Shown piece by piece: positions 1-60,648 of a DNA stretch of 64,000 bases (position 1 is its first letter; every line of letters starts with the position of its first letter). This stretch comes from Symbiodinium sp. CCMP2592. Lineage: Eukaryota > Sar > Dinophyceae > Suessiales > Symbiodiniaceae. The DNA lies in contig CAJNDT010003857.1 in assembly GCA_905221615.1 (NCBI GenBank), forward strand, positions 57,501 to 121,500, written 5' to 3'. The notes beneath the pieces were generated by a model. The model did not search any database. It had not been told where the DNA came from and saw only the letters and a list, made by a program, of their open reading frames with translations. A program made the position numbers and the translations under genes.

Positions 1-1267
1 CTGTTTGGGAGCATGGCCCGGTGTCGCGCCAGCTTTTGGCATGTACCGACGTAGTGGTCCACCCTGACAGCGGGAAAGATCATGAGCCAAGTCATAGAAC
101 AGAATCTGAAACAGTATCGGACACTGTGCCGGATGCTGTCTCCTATCCGTAACCTGCTTGCGACAGCATGGACAGGGCATGCCCTTGACAAGGGTCAGAC
201 CTGATTTGCTGCTCTGTGATGCGGCAGCGGCCCCATGAGCCGCCCATTCGGGCTTGTGGGCCTGCCTGATGTGGGATTTGAGTTTGGTGTTGTCCGGAGT
301 CCAGAACCCACACAGCAAGCAATGAGACATAAGGTCCTGAGACTCATCCAATCTTCCTAGTTCAACAGCTGTGTGTGTAGTCAAGGTGTGTCATGCAAGC
401 GCTGCTGCCTGGGATGCAACCTGGGATTCAGCTGCGAATCTGAGGAAGGGTGCGCCGCGTCATCCAGCTCCTGTAGCCTAGCTGGCTCCGAACAGGCGCC
501 AGATAGCAGATGGTCTTTTAAGCCCTTCATTTGAGGAAATTGCCTATTGCAGGCTGCACACTTGGGGAGCCCTCCTACGGAGAGGGTGTGGGAAAAACCT
601 CGAGGGACATATCTGGGGACCGAGCCTGGATGCTTGCGGGCCTGGTGGGTGCGAAGGCCAACCTCAGTGTCGAAGGCCTGAGCACACGTCGGGCACACGA
701 AAGACGGGGGAGCCTCCTGCTGTGCTGTGTCCTCGGAGAGTTGTTGCAGAACGTCTGCGTAACTGGCAGAGAGCGCCTCTGCTTGGTGAAGCGCCTGCTG
801 TGTCAAAGAGATGTCACCTGCAGGGGTTTTCCGCTGTCGAAGACCTAAGCGCTTAACACGATTGGCTTGTCGCGCCTGCAGCTTACAAACAGGATCCATG
901 ATCTCGTGGGAGGCATAGAGGTCAGCGGTGGATATGTGTGTTAGGTGCACTGGCTTATTCAGGACAGCTCGGATTTTGCGAGCATGCCAAGCCCGCAATA
1001 GTTTGGCTGTCTCCAAGGTCAAGCCTACATCCACCAACCCAGAGGCCACTGTGGCCCAGACAGTACTATGCCAAATGTGCAACCGCGAGCCGTTCGTCTG
1101 TTGTGAACGAAGCGGCGTACCTGCTGCAATTTCACATTGCCCTCTTGCAACCGAAACTTGAGAGTAGCCTTCTCGAAGTTAGAGTAGGAGAGCATGACTC
1201 CGAGATACTTAAAGGTCGTCACCAGCGGAAAGCCTTCGTGAGACTTGGACTCTCCCAGTCGCCACAT
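1..1267 (-). pseudogene. LINE 3' part: RT thumb and C-terminal zinc fingers
   Basis: After the polymerase core comes a thumb-like segment (1267-1025) with the common F-K-Y-L-G-V motif. A 233-codon frame follows (1082-381), with one C2H2 finger at about 695-630 (C-P-T-C ... H-Q-A-R-K-H) and a C-x2-C/H-x-C type finger at about 560-492. In a third frame, starting with ATG at 330 and still open at position 1, there is another C2H2 finger (C-L-L-C ... H-I-R-Q-A-H) and a C-P-C-C ... H-x4-C knuckle. Terminal nucleic-acid-binding fingers occur in several LINE families. Four finger-like units in one C-terminus is more than I would expect. The frame changes between 1082 and 330 show decay. Confidence 0.72.
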
Positions 1268-1283
1268 CTTGTGGCGAGTACCG

Positions 1284-2366
1284 TCAGGCGCGGCGCGCCA
1301 AGGAAATGGCGCGTGGCGCCTGTTGGCCCTCGAGCTTAATCATGACAGTGCATTTCGCACCGTTGACAGCAAATCCATGGCTGCGGACCAACTGCAATAG
1401 CTGCTCAATCAGAGCATGAGCGCGGTCCAGGTCCTCCAGTGAGTGGATTTCACGGTGAACCGTGAGATCATCCGCGTAGCCTGTAAGGTAATCCACCACG
1501 GCTCGAACTCCGACAAGAGCTATGAGCTCCCGAAAGATGGTGCCCGTAAGCATGGAAAAAGTGTGTGGGGGCAAGCTTACAACCCTGTTTTATGCCCGCT
1601 GTGGATTGGACCGCGTCCTCTTCACCCTGGGTGCGAAACGTGTAAGCACTGCCAGCATGTAATGAGGCAACTAGGTCAATGAGGTCCTGTGGGACTCCCG
1701 CGTCCCGCAGGGTGTTGAGCAAGTCTGTCCTGCTCACCATGTCAAAGGCCTGTGACAGGTCAAGGGCGAAGCAGATACCGCCTACCAGCTGGGGGCGACT
1801 TCGCCCCGAGTGAAGCTGATGCCTGGTGCGTCGTGCTTCTTGACAGTTGCTGCGTACCTTATAGTGACATGGCCAACGACCTTGCTCAGTGCATCGGAAA
1901 GACCTCGGTGGGGTTGGTAGGCAAATTGTGGCAGACCCCGGAGATAGTCAGCCGTGTAGGGAGACAGCTGGTCTCTACAAGCCCCCGCCAAGCCTTTGCC
2001 ATCCGGCCGAATGATGCCGAGGGGACGAAGGTTGCCAGGTTTCGTGGCCGGCTTGTTAGGCTTGGGGATAAAACACAAGTCAGCATCCTTTAGAGGCGGC
2101 TGAAGAACCTCAGCAGCCGGAAATGGGCGTTGCCCCCGAGATTGCAGCGTTGCTGCTAGCGCCGCTCCCGCATCTGCCGAGCAGAGCCGCCAGGCAGCCG
2201 CCGGAGCCGAACCCTGCGGGACCGCCTTGTGCGGTCTGATGGAGCCGATGTGCTTGGCCAACAGACCAGCCGGCGAGGCTACTTGGTGGTCGAGGGGCTC
2301 AGAGTGAGAATCCAAAAGCAGGCCATCCGGTCCCTGAAGCTGTGCCTTATAGTTTGCGGCTCCCAT
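1284..2366 (-). pseudogene. LINE reverse transcriptase domain, frameshifted
   Basis: The reverse transcriptase core is split over three frames. 2366-1782 carries the fingers motif F-I-P-K-P-N-K and R-P-L-G-I-I. 1740-1468 carries the first catalytic aspartate region F-A-L-D-L-S-Q-A-F-D just upstream of its first Met, then G-I-K-Q-G-C. 1574-1284 carries G-Y-A-D-D-L (Y-A-D-D codons at 1467-1478). All conserved landmarks occur in the right order and spacing once frames are switched near 2300, 1790 and 1570. The upstream endonuclease lies in yet another frame. The catalytic aspartates are still encoded, so decay is by small indels rather than by loss of the domain. Confidence 0.88.
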
Positions 2367-3934
2367 GGTCGGAGTTTCTTTAGGGTCTTATGTGCGATGT
2401 ACGAGTCGTGTCTGGCGCCCGCCTCGTCCACCTGTGCCTGAAAAGCTCGGTGGCGCTCCTTCTTGGCCAAGTAGAGAGCCTGCTTATGCCAGCGACTCAG
2501 GTCCTCCAAAGACGGATCCAGGTCGGTTAGAGTGGTGATGGAGTCCTCATGCAAGGAGCGAATGTGAGCAACTCGGTTCCACATGCGCAGCGTCGCACGA
2601 TGCTGGGCAGTTTCAGGAGCTTGCTGCGGCCGAGGCTTAGGAAAAAACAAGGCAGAGGCCTCCAGCAGCACCTGATTGACTTCATCAGGCGTGTGGTTCC
2701 GAGAGGACAGGCGCTGGCCCACCCAGTCCTGCATGCGGCCGGCTATCGGCAAACCTGAACGAACTGCCGTCTCTAGAGCTTCCTTATGAAAGGTCAGGGA
2801 AGGGCAAGGGGGCTTAGGCAGATTCCAGTGCTGGGTGGGTCGGAGATAAGCCAAGACGGGAAGGTGGCCGCCTCGCTTCCACCTGCCGAGCTGAAGATCC
2901 TTGCATGGCCCAGACTGTTTTGCCGGGCCCTTGGCCGAAGCTTCTGAGGTTAGCAAAAAGTCTATTTGCGAGCCCTGTCCATTCAAGAAGAAAGTGTGAC
3001 CAGCGCCACAAGACCAAGTGTTAAGAGCTACCAACCTATGGGAGGAAACCAAAGCCTGGAACGGCTCATCCTGCATTTGAGCATGCTCCGGCCTCGTGCT
3101 ACACTGGCCCACCAGACCCTCCTGCGGAGTCAACCGAGCGTTAAAGTCACCTGCCAGGAGAAAGGTATCCCTCGCTGGAATTGCCCGGATCGCTGCTGAG
3201 AGATCGCGGAGCAGGTGTGAGCGGTCTTCCTTGTTCTGCTGAGGAGACTTCTTAGAAGACCACGCATGTTGATAGACCGCTAAGACATGCACGCGGGCCC
3301 CAAGCCACGGAAAAATGACCTGAATGAGCCTGCCGCGGCGTTGCTCTCGCCACCTAATCCGTTTCTTGTCGATTTGAGGAGAAAGGAGAACCATGACACC
3401 GTCCGCTCGACTTGTGTCATGAACAGCTGGCTGCGTGGCAGCGCCTTGCTTGGAGCGTTGTCCCGGAGCGGCTTTACCTTTGGGTGCCCGAGCAGCCCCT
3501 TTGGTGGCGGAGCTTGCGCAGTGCCAACCCTCAACGTCAAACTCTGCTGTCTCACTCCAGTGAGTTTCCTGCAAGACCAAAATGTCGCAGACTGACTTGG
3601 CCTCCGTGCGAAGCCATGTCTACACTTCTGCCCATTGTTGCATGCCAAGGTGCCCAGCGTTCCAGGAGAGAACACGAAGAGACTTGCTGGCACGACCGCC
3701 TCTCGGGCGCGAGCGGAAACTGGCAGAGAGACCTGAGGGACCTGAAGGAGAAATCGTGGAGCCAGGCAGCACTGGGAGGGGGGGAGGGGAGGGCGGGGTG
3801 AGGCCACTGCGGCGCAAATGTTCGGGTGTCAACGCTCCATTCCGGTACGGGATGCTGTCTTGTGTTCTATGTACCTTATTGCAAGCCTTGCGAAAGGCCT
3901 TCTTGCGAATGCTCTCAAAAGAATGCTGGTGCAT
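2279..3934 (-). pseudogene. LINE endonuclease domain with in-frame TAG
   Basis: This is an endonuclease/exonuclease/phosphatase domain of the APE type, which nicks target DNA in LINE integration. Seen in order on the minus strand: S-W-N-A-G at the start, the Q-E-T-H-W metal-site motif just after 3580, G-D-F-N-A-R in the middle, S-Q-I-D-F-L-L-T, and G-G-H-L-P-V where active enzymes have S-D-H. The segments 3934-3620 and 3580-2279 are in one frame and are separated only by a TAG at 3620-3622 and the following short open stretch, so this is a stop mutation rather than a splice. The last roughly 100 residues form the linker toward reverse transcriptase. The altered S-D-H motif and the stop both point to decay. 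Confidence 0.87.
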
Positions 3935-15359: not shown

Positions 15360-17483
15360 TCAGCAGAAGGTTGCCAGCCACGCAGCCAACTGGTCCACAT
15401 CAGGGACATTCTGAGTCACGAATGGATGTGCCTCATGTACCACTCGAACAAAGACGAAAGGTGATGGCCCCGTTCAGCCTACTGGCATACCGTCAAGCCC
15501 CCGGCCAGCAAGTACTCGGTGTCGGCGCGTCTTGCCACATCGCGCGTAAGGCACAGCGCGTTGAACTCGACAAGCTCTGGAGGAAAGTCTGGCGTCAGCC
15601 TACACGATGCATTACGGAATATTGCTGCAAACTTAAGGGATGCTGTGCGATGAGCTGCTTGCTTCAGAACTACCCCGCTACCTACCCCTGCAGGCACAAC
15701 CACCTCGGCTCAGGCTTCTCGCACAAGTGGTCGAAAAGGACCTGAAAAGCTCCAGGTGATTCTTACTCTTCGTGCAGGTACACATCAGCTGCTCGCAGTG
15801 CGCAAGTGGTGCCGTGCGTCTAGCCGGATTCGTGGCAGAAAGACGAATCAGACTTGACAAGTCACAGAACCGAGGGCCACCTCTTGTTTTGGAAGAGATT
15901 CCAGGACCGCCGGCTTGATCCAAAGTTTCCTCTCCCTGCCCCGTTTCTTACAGTTTCCGACAGCTTGCCAGAACTTGCAGGCATGGTGCGGGGAAGGATC
16001 CGATGTCCGCAAACGGATATCTTCCCGTGCTGAGCTCCTGAGATGGTTCCGAGACGTTACTCAACAACAACATTCGAAGGATATCGATAAACATCGGGTC
16101 ACCGAGAGATCCTCCTTACATGTTTGCAACTGGCTGAAGTTTGAAGTCCAAGGCTGCGACAACATGATCCAAGTGAATCTTTGCTGCCACCAAGGCACGT
16201 AGATCACCATTCCTACACTCCAGATGTCCGAAGCGAAGGAATAGTCCTGGCCTAAACAGCGTTCTGGCGACATGTAGGTCACCTCAGGAGGCGAAGCAAC
16301 ACTGACGTGGCCTCGTGTTCGTGGAGACATCTGCTGTTTCTGAACTTCTGCTACCAAGAAATGGGATAAAGGCCTGAGGTCAGGTTTCTTTTAGATCCGA
16401 TGCTTATAAGGGGGTCTGAGCATCTGACCGTGCCAACGAAGGTTCCTGCCATGGCCAAGGTCTTGTCAAGATCCTTGGCAATGCCGAAATCGGTGAGTTT
16501 GACGAAGCCGCTTCTGTTGTGAAGGATGTTCTCCGGCTTGATGTCTCGGTGCAACATCTTCTTCTTGTGCAAGTAGTCGAGGCCATTCATGATCTGGTAA
16601 GTGATATTGGACAGGTAGAACGGGGGCACCCCGCTCCCACCAAGACGCTTCTTGAGGTCTGCAAGACTACCCAAGTCCATGAACTCCAATGCGACGTGCA
16701 CGACGCTGGTACGCTTGGACATGAAGCCTGCGTACCTAGGACAACGAGCCGCGATCTAAGACGCAAACCGCCAGACTGCAAATCCAAATTCAACTTATCA
16801 GGGAAACCACCAGAACGGGAATGGCTGCCAACGACAGGGTGAGCTGCCAGTGGACGAGATTAATGCAGCCGTCCGCTGCGATAAGACCTCGGATCTCGTT
16901 GAGAAGCTGCTCGCGCTTCCCCTTGTCGTCAACTTTTACCGTTTTCACCTTGGCAGGTCATCCTGTCGCTTGCTACCAGTAGCACATCTGCGTTCAAACG
17001 TCAACTGAAGGCAGCTCGGCATGATTTACACGTCTTTCCATAGACCAGGCCACCGGGGTTACACGTCAATCGCTCGCGACGTGATGAGACTGAGGATGGA
17101 ACGGCGACAGGAACTCCCGTCTGCTTGATGACACCCTTCATGACCTCGGCTAGCGGGCTTCACATCTCTGGACGTAAAGCACTGGGCCTGTTGTGCCACA
17201 TGCATTGCATTCGGACATGCACTTTGGGCAGATCCGGAACACGACGAAAGGCTTTGGGATCAAGTGGGCTTGCGAGCGTGTTTGATTATCCCATCTCATC
17301 TTTGCACAGTGCTGCACTGTCAGGGAAGCACATGCTGCAAAGCCACAGGCCAGTTGAATAATCGTCTCTAGTGGCTCATCACCCTTTGCCTTCACGTCGG
17401 CAAGACCCTACGTCCCCCTTTGAGGAGAGGACGACACCGCAGGCCCCAGCTCCGAGATGCGAGTCCGCCTCCAGCTCGATGTC
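15360..17483 (-). CDS. MAP kinase kinase (STE7/MKK family), catalytic domain in nine exons
   Basis: A dual-specificity kinase of the MAPKK type. Exons (minus): 17483-17433, 17144-17103, 16948-16848, 16735-16429, 16282-16199, 16037-15990, 15741-15704, 15599-15506, 15431-15360 (TGA). They sum to 837 nt in one frame (278 residues). Landmarks in order: G-loop G-A-G-A-C-G-V-V, V-A-V-K lysine, helix C E in L-L-N-E-I, H-R-D-I-K-P-E-N, D-F-G, S-P-E in T-Y-M-S-P-E-R, S-D-I-W-S-V-G, E-L-S-T-G-R-Y-P-F and C-L-T-R-D. The activation loop K-T-L-A-M-A-G-T spaces the threonines as S/T-x5-S/T, the plant-like spacing, and has Ala where animal MEKs have the first serine. All nine acceptors are AG|G; donors 3, 6 and 8 are GC. 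Any N-terminal docking region lies upstream. Confidence 0.92.
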
Positions 17484-28829: not shown

Positions 28830-31800
28830 TCAAATCGAAAAGCTCGTTGCATGATGGTGCAACACTTGCTGAACACTTGCATGCCGCGCCAACTGCGCCG
28901 GCGTGCGACCACGCTTGTTAGGAATGTGAGGGTCCGCGCGTACATCCAAGAGATGCTGCACCATGCGGTCTGCACCGAAGAACACAGCATGGCCGAGAGC
29001 GGTTGTGCTGATCTCAGCCGTGTACTTGAGACCCGCCACTGTCTCTTGGCTGTCTCCAGCCGCAAGGGCATAGCCACGACACAGCCACTCGACGACGTTG
29101 AAGATGCCACTCGTTCTGCATGGCTGGTTGATGTCTGCCTGGGTCTCAACACTCCAGGGGCTCCTTGAAACTAGCAGCTAGCACTTCTTCCGATCTCTCC
29201 TGCGAAATCGCTGTTTTCCAAATGTCCGTACCTTGTTTTGGATCAGCAAATCCAACTGGTCCAGGCAGTGAGGGTTGCTACGCGCTGTGCTGGCAAGGGA
29301 TGCCAAAGGTCCCATGCCTGTGCCACCCGCAGACCTCAGGAACCAGCAATCAGAGCAGGTTCTGGATGTCACACGGCCCACGCACATACCTTTGGACACA
29401 CAACTGAAGCGAATCAACAGCCACTCAACAGCCCAACAACCCGAGAAATCCGGCTTCTATGATTTCACCTCTCAACCGAAACAAGTTTTGCCCATGTCTT
29501 GAGGCCAGCTTCAGATTCACCTCCGCACCCAGCCGGATAAGCTCAGCCGTGACCTGGACAAGGTGTTAGGTCAGGAAGCCGTTTGTTGTGCGCGACCCAC
29601 CCACCCGCCTCGAGAGGCTAGCGGCTAACATTCTGCCACAACAAGACGTTGACCACAACTTCGAGACAAGGAGCAGCCACGGGAGCTTGGCGGTTGCATG
29701 CAGCAGCCAATGCAGACTGAAAGAAAGGAGGCGGCCTTGAAAGGGTCTACTGCGCCGAGACTTGCATTCTGATTCTTTTCAATTCTGCAAGATGCATGGC
29801 CCAGGCCCACCTCAGGTTCACATCTGCCCGATGCTCCACCAGCATCTTGACCGACGAGGTCGTGTGGCAAAGTCCCAAGACCTGACAGGCAGCGTAAACA
29901 GCGGGATTTGCTGCACACGTTGCAAGTCATGTGGGTGGTTGTCAACATTATGGTCCTTTTGTGGGTCCTTATTATAATACGGCCCTTAATATTTAGGGTA
30001 CCCAACAAGAGACCATAACTTTGACAACTACCCATGCGAAACCAGGGCACCGGGATCTTCAGGAAGCTGTCTGTGGTGTTGGGATCTGCTTGAAGCTGAA
30101 GTAGCTTTTTCAGAGCCGACTCCTCTCTGCTGAGAATGGCCAGATGCAGCGGGGTCCATCCATTTTCGATGCCAACCTGACTTCAAAGCTGTCTTCCAAA
30201 GAAGGCAGTGGAGGCACAAAGCATTTCGAGGGCAAGCGATTGATTTATTTCCACTACGAGCAAACTTGTTAGACAGAGTGCCTCTGGACTAGTGATTCAG
30301 AGTCAACAGAAGCCTCAATGACCGGGCCTCGGCCATGTCGCGCAAGCGCGTCTGGATGGGCGCACCTTCCGCGGCCAGTCGGCACAGTAGGGCCGCGTCC
30401 TACCAGGTCAGCAAGGTGTGCCGCAGGACAACAACGAACGGACACCGTCCCTCAACTTCGCTGCGGCTGGGCCGACCATGCCGCAATCACGCTCACGCTC
30501 CTGAGCCTTGACTTGTTTGCCTTGCAATCTGCCAACCTTGCCAGCAACCTCCCCCTGCCTTCCCCAGATTTGGGCTGCGGCTTAACGTCAATCTTGCCTT
30601 ATCAATACGTTAACCAACCCCTGCGACTAGACCAAACTAATTCGTATGCCCAGTGACGCCAGAGAGAGCAGCGCAAGCTACAGCCCCCATGCCGCGCCGC
30701 TGGTGTATGGCTGCCTTCACGCCAGTGGTCGTCTAGCAAATGATTGAAAGCCACAGACTGCTCGTGGAAACTGGCTAGTACTGGACGGTCCAATGCCATG
30801 AGCTAAGTGCAAGATGGACCGGGCTTCGGCTTCTGCTACATGCCTGAGTTTGAGGATTGGCGAGAAGATTTTGCCACTGCCCTTCGGTAACAGATCACCT
30901 CGCCTCACTACTCAACTCTACTAGCTCCTGCTCAACAGTCAAAGCAGGCTGTCGGCCAGTTTTGTTATGACGGATCATCTCGGCTGAGCGAAGCTCCGCC
31001 CAAAAGCATGTTGGGGCCCTGCAAACAATAAGCTGCAGAAAAGAGCAGCTCTAGTCTAGTGCAGCAGCGCAGTCAAGCAATAAACAGAAGAGGCCGCGTG
31101 AAGGACTTCGCACCATGCCATCACGTAGACCTGAGCCTAGGCTAAGCTAAATGCCCGCGCGCGACAAAGAAGTGCTGTGGCATGAAACTTGCATCCGCGG
31201 CCATTTTAATGTGGAACCTGACCGATTAAGTACCATTCATCTCCAGCTACTTAATCCTGAAGTGGCCTGCAGCGATGGGAAACGGAAGCGAGACACGAAT
31301 TCATCGATATCACGCTCCGCTGCAGGCAGGCCAAGGAAAACCTGGAAGTGCCACCGTAAGTCTTGGAGTGAAGGCCGCACGGATTAGACTTCGGTTCTTC
31401 AATTCAGCATGGAAGAAACGGGTCCGCTGCCCGACGGAAGCTAGCCTCGGCACCTCAGCGGTGGGATCCTTGACAGCCCATTGTAGCAAACCCTTCCGAA
31501 GTACCTTAATCTTTGCCCAGGCGCTTCATATCTGGCCGCATAGTACCTTGCTTCGCAAAGCATGCCACCGCACAGGGCGCTCAGAATAGGCTTAATGTTC
31601 TGCATTGGTTGATGCGCGGCCAACTGCATCGAGGTGCCTGAACTGTTCAATCTGACCAGAAGCTTGTAGGCGATGCAGCTTGTTGTCGAGTGCGGTTCGA
31701 ACGAAACCAGAAACGCGCTCTCGGTCGGACTGGCAGGTGAACTCACCTGCAGGCACTCCCAACCAATCCAACCCTGTGGACGCTGAAGGGGGCGAGATGG

Positions 31801-33048
31801 ATGCAACTGAACATTCTGACGCAGGCTTGTGGGACTGCAGGTCTTTGTGTCCCGGCCTTCATGCGCAGGGTTTTGCACCCACTGCAACGGAAGCCCAAAT
31901 TCAATCTGGTCCTCTCCGGAGACGACAATAATCGGCACGTCAGCTCTCGACCTGCCGAGAGCAAGCATGCTCAAATCAGCGTCGGGTATGCCCGTGCGAA
32001 TACAAAACATAATATTAGAGAGACAGACACAGAGACAGACAGACAGACAGACACAACCAGCATCTTCTCTGGCTCGCTTAGGGCTCTTTCGATCACTGGC
32101 GCTCTAGGGTGTGTTGTGGGAAGTTTGGCTCCTAGCCGCCGATGCTCAACACCACTTGTACTCGCGAAACACACAGGCCCAGGGACCTATCGGCCAGCAG
32201 CTGACACCACATCTCGGCACGGCACCACCTCAGCGGCCGTGGCCCATGCCACGGTTCACTTGCAATCCTCCTGCTGTTGCGTCATTCCAAGCCCCCGGTC
32301 GAGGGACGAAGAGAAACTAGATGAAACTAGCATCGTGGTGGCCTACCCAAAGCTCAAAACTTTCCAGCTGCGAAAGCCCTTCACGCACCCGGGCTACACC
32401 CGACTACACTCCAACATGTGGCAAGTAAGACCCCACACGACGAGTAGACGACTGACTGCGTGCTGTTGACAAAGGTGAGACAGAGAGCGCACCTGGCATG
32501 AGTTTAGAAACCCGATGAACTCGATTAGGCTTTGCAGTGGCTGTGCAGCTAGCGATGCTTGGCAACTCAGCTCAGCACCCTCTTGACAACCAGCTCGCGA
32601 GATCACAGTCTTGCTGCGAACTGAAGTGGCGCAGAGGCGGCACCAAAGCAACGAAGAGGTGGCACGCTCCCACATAGAATGGGATTGACTGAATGCCCAG
32701 TTCCGCTTTCGAGTTCGGGATCTGCGGGATCGAGAACCAATCAAGCCAAACATATGCATTTGCCAGTTGCGCCCTGTCTTTTTCACCAAGCCGTCTATAC
32801 TGCTGTCGTAGCTGTGATACGACATCTGACTCCACTTTGACCGTGCCATCGATGGTGTTCCGCAGCGCCTTCTGCAAGATCTTCAGCTGCAGACCATCCG
32901 GATCGGGATGCCAGCTGCTCAACCACTGGTGTGACACAAATATCGTCAGCAGGCTAGGCCTCCACTCCACCAAAAGGTTTCGTCTCTGCAATTCTTCGTG
33001 CGAGGGCGCCGGGCCCAAAATTTCCAGCAGATCCGAGACTCTGAGAAC
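28830..33048 (-). CDS. S-H-Q-W domain plus ankyrin-repeat protein, 14 exons
   Basis: Exons (minus): 33048-32579, 32228-32187, 31951-31857, 31746-31638, 31546-31525, 31341-31267, 30714-30658, 30399-30328, 30176-30051, 29881-29811, 29735-29660, 29553-29510, 29334-29232, 29138-28830 (TGA). They sum to 1671 nt without a stop, 556 residues. Residues about 1-280: F-V-S-H-Q-W-L, H-P-D, Y-V-W-L-D-W-F-S-I-P-Q-I, R-G-W-C-R-A-E-M-W-C, P-I-I-V-V-S, then R-Y-Y-A-A-R-Y-E. The rest holds ankyrin-type repeats, e.g. N-G-W-T-P-L-H-L-A-I-L, V-E-H-R-A-D-V-N-L, L-I-R-L-G-A-E-V-N and N-K-R-G-R-T-P-A-Q-L-A. The family is abundant in symbiodiniacean genomes as I know them; function unknown, probably protein-binding signalling. 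All 13 internal acceptors are AG|G and six of 13 donors are GC. The start codon is upstream; the end of exon 11 could be 6 nt further. Confidence 0.9.
31525..31546 (-). other. 22-nt microexon of the ankyrin gene
   Basis: Exon 5 encodes only the end of an Arg codon plus Y-Y-A-A-R-Y-E. It follows an AG|G acceptor (GCAAG|G) and is followed by a GC donor (GAA|GCGCCT). It is fixed by phase on both sides and by the continuity R-Y-Y-A-A-R-Y-E into V-F-L-G-L-P of exon 6. Confidence 0.75.
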
Positions 33049-33292
33049 CTCATCTGGGCTCAAGACGAAGGAAGGACTAGCTGCTCACTAGCTACCTCAA
33101 CCGCTCAGACCGGCTGTTTTCAACCCTTCAACTGGCAGTCTGCTCAAGAGGGTTCACTAAACAAGGGGTCTGCACGTCTGCACGCAAGATTCGACGTCCC
33201 AACCATCGAATGCTCAGACAACACGCAGCTCGAGGGCACAAGTTTAGATGTCTTCTGCTAAAAGATTGGCAACCCGAGCACTGACAGCACAC

Positions 33293-59029: not shown

Positions 59030-59225
59030 ACCGACTACTACTACGACGACTACCACGACTGCAGCATTGTTCCGCCTGCCAATACAGCTAGCAGCGACAA
59101 AGATCCAGGATCGTGTGGTGTGCTATTGATGTTTGACCAAATGTTTGTTCCAATCGTGTGTTCAGAGGTAGTGGTGGTAGTGCTGGTGCTGGTGGTGGTT
59201 GTGATGGTGGTGGTCGTGGTGGTAT
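59030..59225. repeat. Triplet-rich stretches (TACGAC and GTGGTG)
   Basis: Imperfect CTACGACGAC at 59030-59062 and GTGGT(A/G) at 59165-59225. The poly-His/Thr tails of minus-strand frames across it are artefacts. Confidence 0.8.
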
Positions 59226-59437
59226 GAGCGGCCCATGAGCGTCCAGCACAGGTTCGGTTGTGTTGGTTTTTTGACACTCGCTCTCGGACAAGCCTGGCAA
59301 GGTCTGCAGAAGTAGGTTAGTGTTCGCGAGGGGGGGTAGTCGCCATATAGCAGGCAAGGAGCCGATTGTAGCAAAGCGGCGAGGGAGTCCCAGGAGCGAA
59401 AGGTTGCTGTGAAGCTGGTACTGGTAGGTGGACTGAC

Positions 59438-59917
59438 GCGAGAATTCTCAACATCCATCTGCACCTCGATGTCGTCGTCCTCATTCTCCTGCCGATCCTC
59501 ATCGATCGCCTCTTCAGGCAAGTCGTCGAGAAGGTCGATCGCATCCATGCACACGTCTCTGCCCTCCTTCGGTTGTGCCGTCAGCGGCGCTGACTGCTGA
59601 CTCTCCCTGAGCTGCGGCATGGCTTTCGCCAGCCTCTTGGAGAGTGGCTCGGCGACTGGTGGAAGTGCCGATGCTTTCGCAGGGGTGGCAGACTTCACGG
59701 ATTCTAGAGAAAGTCGTGGACCATTGCTAGCTCGTCCAGGAAGATCGGATTCGTGAGCCTTGGGCTCATGCAAAGCCTGGTCCTGGCCACGACTTTCCAA
59801 GCCATGGAGCTGCTGCTCTAGCTGCGAATGTCTTTCAAGAAGTCGTTGGATTTCACGGCCTTGTTCTTCAATGGAGGCCCTCAGCTGCTGGATGGCCTCA
59901 AGGCTTTCATCAGCCAT
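59438..59917 (-). CDS. Coiled-coil protein, first coding exon
   Basis: ATG at 59917 opens 160 codons to a GT donor (TCTCGC|GTCAGT). Residues 1-45 are a strong coiled coil (heptad-like L-R-A-S-I-E-E-Q-G-R-E-I-Q-R-L-L-E-R-H). A low-complexity Pro/Ser/Lys middle follows, then an acidic segment L-L-D-D-L-P-E-E-A-I-D-E-D near residues 125-155. An upstream frame to 60058 is open but less protein-like, so the inner ATG is chosen. Sitting 0.9 kb upstream of the first Kelch exon on the same strand, it may be the N-terminus of that gene; the joining exons were not found. Confidence 0.62.
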
Positions 59918-60648
59918 TGCTCGTCGACGAGTCTTTCCACTTATTAAATCACCTGACACACTCACGCCGCAATTTCTGAAGCGGACTGCTCCATCCCGAC
60001 ATGCTGGAACCCCCTTAGGAGGCCATCCTGCGGCTTGAATTTCGGAGTTTTGCGGCATGTTCTGGCATGTTGCAGATACGGTTACGGGTGCCTGACAACT
60101 ATGAGAAGTCAGTCACATCTGAACTGCTACTGCTAACCCTACAGCTTGAGCTTGGAGACGCGCTCAAGGCTTGGCATGATAGGCGGGCAAGCAAAGTTCA
60201 TCACATGTGTTGGGATCTGCATGGGCACTTGAAGCCAAGCTGTCGTCAATCGACCGCTCTTGATTTTGCCATGCTCAGCCGATGAGGCAAACTCAGGGAA
60301 AGCATGCCTTGGTCCAGTTGAGCAGTTTGCGCGAAGCTGATGCGTGCACTGTCTGCTTGTAGACTATAGCATCCTAGAACTACGAGGAGCAGCAGCCACG
60401 GATCCAACCTTTTCTGCGGCCCAGGAACACGTAACCGAGACAGTCCTCTGGGTGTGGCCTAGGTTGCGAGACGCTTCGACACAGCCGAGCAAGCTAGCAA
60501 AACCAGACTCAGAAAGTTCTCGCATCCCGAGCAGAGAGAATCGAATCCCCGTTGCCTGTTCGTAGCTCCCTTGCCCCCAAGCCATCCATACATGCACAGG
60601 GCGAGAGGCAGTTCGCCGGGATGCCTCTGAAAGACTTGCGCCTGGCAC
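59918..60648. other. No supported gene
   Basis: Upstream flank of the coiled-coil exon. Short frames only. Confidence 0.4.

Follow-up and report, generated by a model that had tools for sequence, protein, structure and literature searches.

A putative divergent TIR-like module joined to ankyrin repeats in Symbiodinium, with relatives in scattered bacteria

In a 64,000-nucleotide stretch of the genome of Symbiodinium sp. CCMP2592 (contig CAJNDT010003857.1, positions 57,501 to 121,500; the whole stretch is called the window below), a gene on the minus strand, 33053..28830, appears to encode a protein that begins with a module marked by a S-H-Q-W motif and ends in ankyrin repeats. The locus raises the question of what this module is and what it would do in one chain with the repeats. 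An earlier note, made from the letters alone, had proposed that the module recalls the TIR and HET signalling domains, and that 14 exons join it to the repeats in a single open frame of 556 residues. Exons were found by reading the three minus frames, and the 13 junctions were placed at AG acceptors; we likewise obtained 14 exons and one open frame with no internal stop, but its length came to 565 residues plus the stop codon, the gap presumably arising from the choice of junctions and start. The strings quoted in the note are all present in the spliced minus-strand frame, in the order stated there. With residues numbered from the Glu codon at window position 33051, the frame runs FVSHQW (38), HPDP (48), WLDWFSIPQ (102), FVALVP (133), RGWCRAE (157) and PIIVVS (178), with GWTPLHLA at 323 among the ankyrin repeats. 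The C-terminal half consists of ankyrin repeats, with five Pfam families over the cut-off (Ank_2 1.1e-14, Ank 5.3e-11, Ank_3 9.3e-10, Ank_4 1.2e-9 and Ank_5 2.4e-7); splicing and the Ank_2 match together bear out the proposed succession of module and repeats in one frame. Ankyrin families are all that Pfam reports for the 565 residues; neither NACHT nor NB-ARC appears up to E 10. Judged from sequence, the gene model is beyond chance, given the Ank_2 match in the spliced protein and the recovery of the module by a profile of bacterial relatives alone.

Searched directly, the algal module (residues 1-282) had no match in Pfam, NCBIfam, PADLOC or, by phmmer, PDB. Its best tblastn matches were at E 0.8 among plasmids and E 7 among phages, IMG/VR returned nothing with the module protein and no contig with the DNA motif pattern given below, and among the papers listed in literature searches none describes the module, as judged by titles and the starts of abstracts. 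Relatives were found by scanning the DNA of GTDB genomes with a pattern taken from the window, F-x-[S/T and a few others]-H-[RQ]-W-x4-H-P-D-P. Among the 18 stretches returned, 17 frames carry Fx[ST]HRW-x4-HPDP, D-x5-Q and RxW-x3-E in this order; the remaining one (L007), whose frame of only 58 residues is without RxW-x3-E, was left out of the 17-member set. The sources of the 17 are Myxococcales, Chloroflexi, Burkholderiales, Lentzea, Variovorax, Verrucomicrobia, Nitrosomonas, Streptomyces, Bradyrhizobium (three), Mesorhizobium, Aureimonas, Rhodocyclaceae, Schlesneria, Nocardioides and Chromatiales. The distance from HPDP to the D motif ranges from 18 to 159, with ~70 to 140 extra residues in some bacterial members, and R-x-W-x3-E lies 42-54 residues past the D motif (15 loci measured).

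Three alignments were used: A1 (the spliced algal module with 11 of the 17 bacterial members, 12 sequences), A2 (the 17 bacterial modules and exon 1 of the window, 18 rows) and A3 (the spliced algal module with eight compact modules out of the 17). All 18 rows of A2 have the D and Q of D-x5-Q, two residues outside the scan pattern, and the positions invariant in A1 besides the pattern residues are D104, Q110, R157, W159 and E163. The earlier note had proposed to look for a conserved Glu across paralogues; looked for in the bacterial relatives instead, it is there, as E163 is the same in 12/12 sequences of A1, the alga and 11 bacterial members alike. Scored with a profile of nothing but the 17 bacterial modules, the algal module reached 55.9 bits (E 8.6e-16), against 5.5 for the best of 2000 shuffles and 8.5 bits for the best window frame besides exon 1. 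Because the scan pattern came from the window, everything up to and including HPDP was cut from both profile and query in a second test, which gave 24.3 bits (E 6.8e-6; best of 5000 shuffles 8.1) in two pieces, of which the one at the D motif contributed 16.7 bits and the one at RGWC 6.7. An extra member, on a Pseudanabaena plasmid, was reached by tblastn with a Bradyrhizobium module (L018; E 6e-8) and not by motif; it reads FISHRWGSQDDPDP, FWYDFSCLPQ and RGWCFAE, so that the H of HPDP is not absolute. Nothing was found in IMG/VR with the L018 module or with the TIR protein encoded beside it, nor among plasmids with L001. The motifs in order (Fx[ST]H[RQ]W, D-x5-Q, RxW-x3-E) and the profile score place the algal module in this family of uncharacterised bacterial SHRW-HPDP proteins, to which it is homologous. 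The bacterial proteins (17 GTDB loci and the Pseudanabaena plasmid) differ from it in having R for the algal Q in SHxW, and six full or partial bacterial frames scanned gave no ankyrin match.

As to the superfamily, the family profiles point to TIR. A search of PDB with A2 gave a single match up to E 10, the TIR domain of a Toll-like receptor (E 1), and with A3 two, both TIR (SNC1, E 0.032, and again the Toll-like receptor, TLR15/TLR2, E 0.77), aligned on W-C-x-x-E in both cases, with the Glu motif of the module opposite WCLNEL of SNC1. Of four Pfam families that matched, each weakly and in a single one of the 18 members of A2, HET was the best (E 0.035), and the remaining three (0.14 to 0.24) are senseless here; the whole frame of L004 matched HET at E 0.11 over the D motif, with 13.3 bits against a cut-off of 22.5. 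The identification of the module as HET (PF06985) was not adopted, its score being below the Pfam cut-off. DUF4062 had no Pfam match in the algal protein or in any of the 18 members of A2. PADLOC gave two weak single-member matches for the same 18 (PD-Lambda-5_B, 0.0031; ZorF, 0.044), on which we do not build.

The fold was predicted for a bacterial member, L016, with a mean predicted local distance difference test score (pLDDT) of 76.0, a predicted template modelling score (pTM) of 0.72, and blocks of pLDDT 80 to 94 across residues 11-140. The model alternates strands and helices: strand 44-49, helix 62-74, strand 78-81, helices within 94-113, strand 115-119, helix 128-140 and strand 145-148. 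FVSHRW lies within the first of the main strands (44-49), D82 comes right after the second, and W129 and E133 are in helix 128-140, after the third, the invariant Glu falling early in this helix. The Glu of W-C-x-x-E at the start of helix C is the catalytic residue of TIR NADases, and the conserved Glu of the present family occupies a comparable place: E163 in all 12 sequences of A1, E133 in helix 128-140 of L016, opposite WCLNEL of SNC1. Foldseek comparison of the model with 350,542 PDB chains gave 395 matches up to E 10, of which the best 50 are listed; judging by their titles, the entries at ranks 1-28 are all TIR domains or else proteins and complexes that contain one, headed by the RPS4/RRS1 TIR heterodimer (probability 1.00, E 1.3e-3), and the first unrelated entry stands at rank 29. 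The RPP1, SPARTA and ThsB entries are TIR by their titles, the aligned part not being shown. We conclude that the module most likely belongs to the TIR superfamily as a divergent member. The likeness to TIR and HET proposed in the earlier note is thereby upheld at the level of the superfamily, by profile and by the fold of the bacterial member, and not at the level of the Pfam TIR and HET families, whose cut-offs were missed.

What we consider probable is that the gene encodes a two-part protein, in which a divergent TIR-superfamily domain (~35-235) is followed by ankyrin repeats (~285-565) that control cleavage of nicotinamide adenine dinucleotide (NAD) or TIR-TIR signalling. The first part would represent a TIR-like subfamily marked by Fx[ST]H[RQ]W-x4-HPDP, D-x5-Q and RxW-x3-E, which occurs also in scattered bacteria. 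The ankyrin part would bind a ligand or a partner protein, this binding would alter the assembly of the TIR-like part, and the latter would then either cleave NAD or a related nucleotide by means of the invariant E163, or signal through TIR-TIR contacts or by recruiting TIR-like proteins. We infer here that the module acts as an enzyme, that the repeats act as a sensor, that the protein serves in immunity, stress or cell death, and that one transcript covers the whole gene. Several results count against this proposal. The Pfam TIR family was reported for 0/18 members of A2 at E up to 10, a negative on which it bears that the HMMER filters discard most matches above ~0.1; with its cut-offs missed, assignment of the module to Pfam TIR was not adopted. 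The profile-profile comparison suggested in the earlier note came out weak, hhalign against five TIR proteins giving a probability of 8.9% and E 0.0037 over 47 columns. Structure prediction, suggested there for residues 1-280, was applied to bacterial L016 and to algal exon 1: the model of L016 ranks TIR first, but with no Foldseek match at E 0.001 or better and with low TM-scores at ranks 1-28 (0.28-0.34 by query length, at most 0.44 by target length; root-mean-square deviation, rmsd, 6.5-15.8), and the model of algal exon 1 is too poor to use (mean pLDDT 57.6, pTM 0.42). Because of this poor model the fold was carried over from the bacterial relative, and the algal copy presumably shares it. 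Besides, the stretch between FVALVP and RGWC is longer in the alga than in the eight bacterial modules of A3, the gene model lacks a start codon, as the frame of exon 1 is open only from 33084 and has no ATG ahead of the module, and the putative join of module exons 1-6 to ankyrin exons 7-14 is by phase and splice sites.

Part of this evidence would also suit a module that is TIR-like in fold but no enzyme and acts only as an interaction domain, an adaptor or scaffold as in animal Toll receptors, with its conserved residues serving the structure. We hold this to be possible, if doubtful: the TIR of an animal Toll-like receptor is one of the two PDB profile matches, and the TM-scores to known NADase TIRs are low, yet the Glu is invariant in all of A1, across bacteria and the alga, and the entries at Foldseek ranks 1-28 are mostly plant or SPARTA TIRs, some of them in complex with NAD or NADP (6o0w, 7s2z). 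The fold comparison also brings in the explanation that the module belongs to another alpha/beta family near TIR, for example that of the nucleoside 2-deoxyribosyltransferases, and is like TIR only through a kinship of the folds. Two such structures, at ranks 31 and 44 of the 50 matches listed, have TM-scores by target length (0.44 and 0.46) that no TIR entry exceeds, and their rmsd is lower (5.3 and 4.0), the columns compared being fewer. At fold level a TIR topology is found on bacterial L016 only, with the deoxyribosyltransferases as close by TM. Because these two equal the TIR entries in this respect, we raised the weight of this explanation and lowered that of our preferred one; it is still quite unlikely, since TIR fills ranks 1-28 by E-value and the PDB profile matches are TIR only, on W-C-x-x-E. 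That the motifs are chance and mark no domain at all is hardly credible: the algal module alone draws a blank in Pfam, NCBIfam, PADLOC and PDB, but the two profile scores stand far above those of their shuffles. A further explanation concerns the gene and not the fold: there would be two genes, both on the minus strand, one (exons 1-6) for the module by itself, closed by the in-frame stop just past exon 6, and the other (exons 7-14) for an ankyrin protein. Exon 6, if unspliced, does run to a stop ~20 bases on, no homology supports the join across the 546 bases between exons 6 and 7, and an ankyrin gene could begin at the in-frame ATG of exon 7 (RRG-M-GAV), for which reason we gave this explanation more weight. 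It is nonetheless unlikely, as a GA and a GT donor each link exon 6 to exon 7 in phase, and the residues of exon 7 ahead of the ATG extend the frame from a proper AG acceptor.

Taken as a TIR-like module followed by ankyrin repeats, the protein appears to be a variant of the known effector-plus-repeat kind, with a putative function. With TIR domains (plant RPS4, RUN1 and SNC1, the SPARTA TIR-APAZ protein, the Toll receptor), which are the best PDB matches of the family both by profile and by Foldseek E-value, it shares the order of strands and helices seen in the bacterial model and the place of W-C-x-x-E, early in the helix that follows the third main strand; besides the missing Pfam match, the low TM-scores and the longer algal stretch before RGWC, it differs from them in the extra SHxW-x4-HPDP and D-x5-Q. 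To HET, the domain of fungal incompatibility proteins, the likeness is confined to the D..Q block of L004, which matches part of the HET profile below cut-off and in 1/18 members, and to our knowledge SH[RQ]W and HPDP are not HET motifs. The layout, with an effector at one end and repeats at the other, is that of NLR/STAND receptors with a TIR or HET effector and ankyrin repeats; as no NTPase domain (NACHT or NB-ARC), the switch of such receptors, was reported by Pfam in its 565 residues, the algal protein is set apart from them, and its identification as a NLR or STAND receptor was not adopted. According to a published study HET is itself distantly related to TIR, and the HET alignment given there includes homologues from stramenopiles, haptophytes, choanoflagellates, green algae and bryophytes and one from a bacterium (PMC4986451), so that some members of the present family may already count as HET homologues. 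A parallel in kind is the DUF4062 / Swarozyc and TEP1 TIR-like NADases (PMC13174449), likewise a divergent TIR-like family first of unknown kind, in which the catalytic Glu is conserved and sensor domains have been added; the module differs from them in that no Pfam DUF4062 match was reported. SARM1-like TIRs have been reported from dinoflagellates in an atlas of eukaryotic TIRs built on Pfam models (PMC13142454), whereas the Pfam TIR models report no match to the present module.

Dinoflagellates include the symbionts of corals, and we know of few immune or cell-death receptors in them. It is tentatively conceivable that a TIR subfamily outside Pfam, common to bacteria and a dinoflagellate, has been built into TIR-like/ankyrin receptors that lack the NTPase switch, that these act by NAD cleavage in immunity or cell death, and that they form a possibly large family derived from bacterial defence genes. 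If the module is an active TIR, the single invariant Glu, an intron-free bacterial family that can be expressed and a repeat domain that can be deleted would give a handle on it, and the bacterial members would be candidates for an unnamed TIR-like family, perhaps in defence. Many dinoflagellate proteins combine similar SHQW modules with ankyrin repeats. Within the window there is no paralogue of the module elsewhere, the best match outside the gene being at E 1.0 with the whole protein and 1.3 with the first 290 residues, and the module motifs tried were absent from eight ankyrin loci of the same genome (L023-L030, ~3.3 kb each). The assembly (1,098,105,373 bases, 5,383 contigs) is rich in ankyrin repeats, with at least 251 matches when 150 of 4,173 candidates had been scored.

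The gene model itself has 13 donors of three kinds (six GT, six GC and one GA), and alternatives at junctions 5/6, 6/7, 9/10 and 10/11 were decided by frame. All exons lie on the minus strand. Exon 1 (32579..33053) holds the N-terminal extension, FVSHQW-x4-HPDP, WLDWFSIPQ and FVALVP, ends in ...WLSR(GG) and is recognised by the profile of bacterial relatives; a further exon upstream of it is likely. Exon 2 (32187..32228), (G)WCRAEMWCQLLAD, contributes the W and the 12/12-invariant E of R-x-W-x3-E, exon 3 (31857..31951), SRADVPIIVVSGEDQIEFGLPLQWVQNPAHE, a putative later strand, and exon 4 (31638..31746), GEFTCQSDRERVSGFVRTALDNKLHRLQASGQIEQF, resembles by eye the F-x4-D-x3-V region that follows the module in L001, L009 and L017. 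Exon 5 (31525..31546) is short, with an uncertain choice of donor. Exon 6 (31257..31341) is the linker VFLGLPAAERDIDEFVSRFRFPSLQATS, drawn with the GA donor; with the GT donor it ends at 31251, which is also in frame and gives 567 residues plus stop. In a Symbiodiniaceae genome study the gene-finding programs were adapted to allow GA donors (PMC8045281), and splicing at a GA donor would thus fit a dinoflagellate. The first ankyrin-like piece, IHQRRGMGAVACAALSG, is exon 7 (30658..30710), with the in-frame ATG; the best Pfam Ank_2 stretch, 289-387, starts nearby. Ankyrin repeats continue by Pfam through exons 8 (30328..30399), 9 (30068..30176; repeat GWTPLHLAILSREESALKKLLQLQADPN, Pfam Ank 322-353) and 10 (29811..29910); exon 11 (29654..29735) is ankyrin-like, its acceptor being less certain, exons 12 (29510..29553) and 13 (29232..29334) are ankyrin as well, and exon 14 (28830..29138) carries the last repeats (Pfam Ank_5 509-547) and the stop codon. 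No spliced-leader relic was found within the window. In intron 9, at window ~29925-30045, an imperfect inverted repeat of ~110 bases is visible by eye (GGGTGGTTGTCAACATTATGG... / ...CCATAACTTTGACAACTACCC), perhaps a small mobile element.

The surroundings of the bacterial module genes were scanned through 10 neighbour proteins, chosen by eye from six of the 17 loci without a control set, and the results are anecdotes only; four of the 10 match PADLOC at E 0.01 or better. In the Bradyrhizobium locus L018 (1434-5342, minus strand) the module gene lies beside genes for a PfkB kinase, a TIR_2 protein (Pfam 2.2e-12), an Ogg-HhH glycosylase and QueC; the TIR_2 protein has a TGT-like part and also matches TGT of PADLOC, which recognises QueC too, and the pair of kinase and TIR recurs in three rhizobial plasmid stretches. 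In L003 one neighbour, a TPR-S protein, matches a TIR effector of PADLOC (1.6e-8), a second one there having no match in Pfam or PADLOC, and in L002 the neighbour is a helicase matching DpdF, PsyrT and many other helicase models. By Pfam, the module gene has a RES domain next to it in L012 and a patatin close by in L010, and the neighbour in L011 is PhoD-like. On the Pseudanabaena plasmid (L022, 5887-12605) the module gene, an adjoining gene for a tetratricopeptide protein, one for an ATP-binding protein and, ~5 kb on, one for a TIR-domain protein all lie within 7 kb. These surroundings are only a hint.

Elsewhere in the window, all on the minus strand, there are an open frame of 316 residues with no Pfam match over cut-off (59162-60112), pieces of a non-LTR-like retrotransposon with an endonuclease (Exo_endo_phos 7.4e-12), a reverse transcriptase (RVT_1 6e-7) and a C2H2 zinc finger frame (381-3619), and a protein kinase exon (16351-16755; Pkinase 8.6e-24) in which HRDIKPENIL and DFG are visible.

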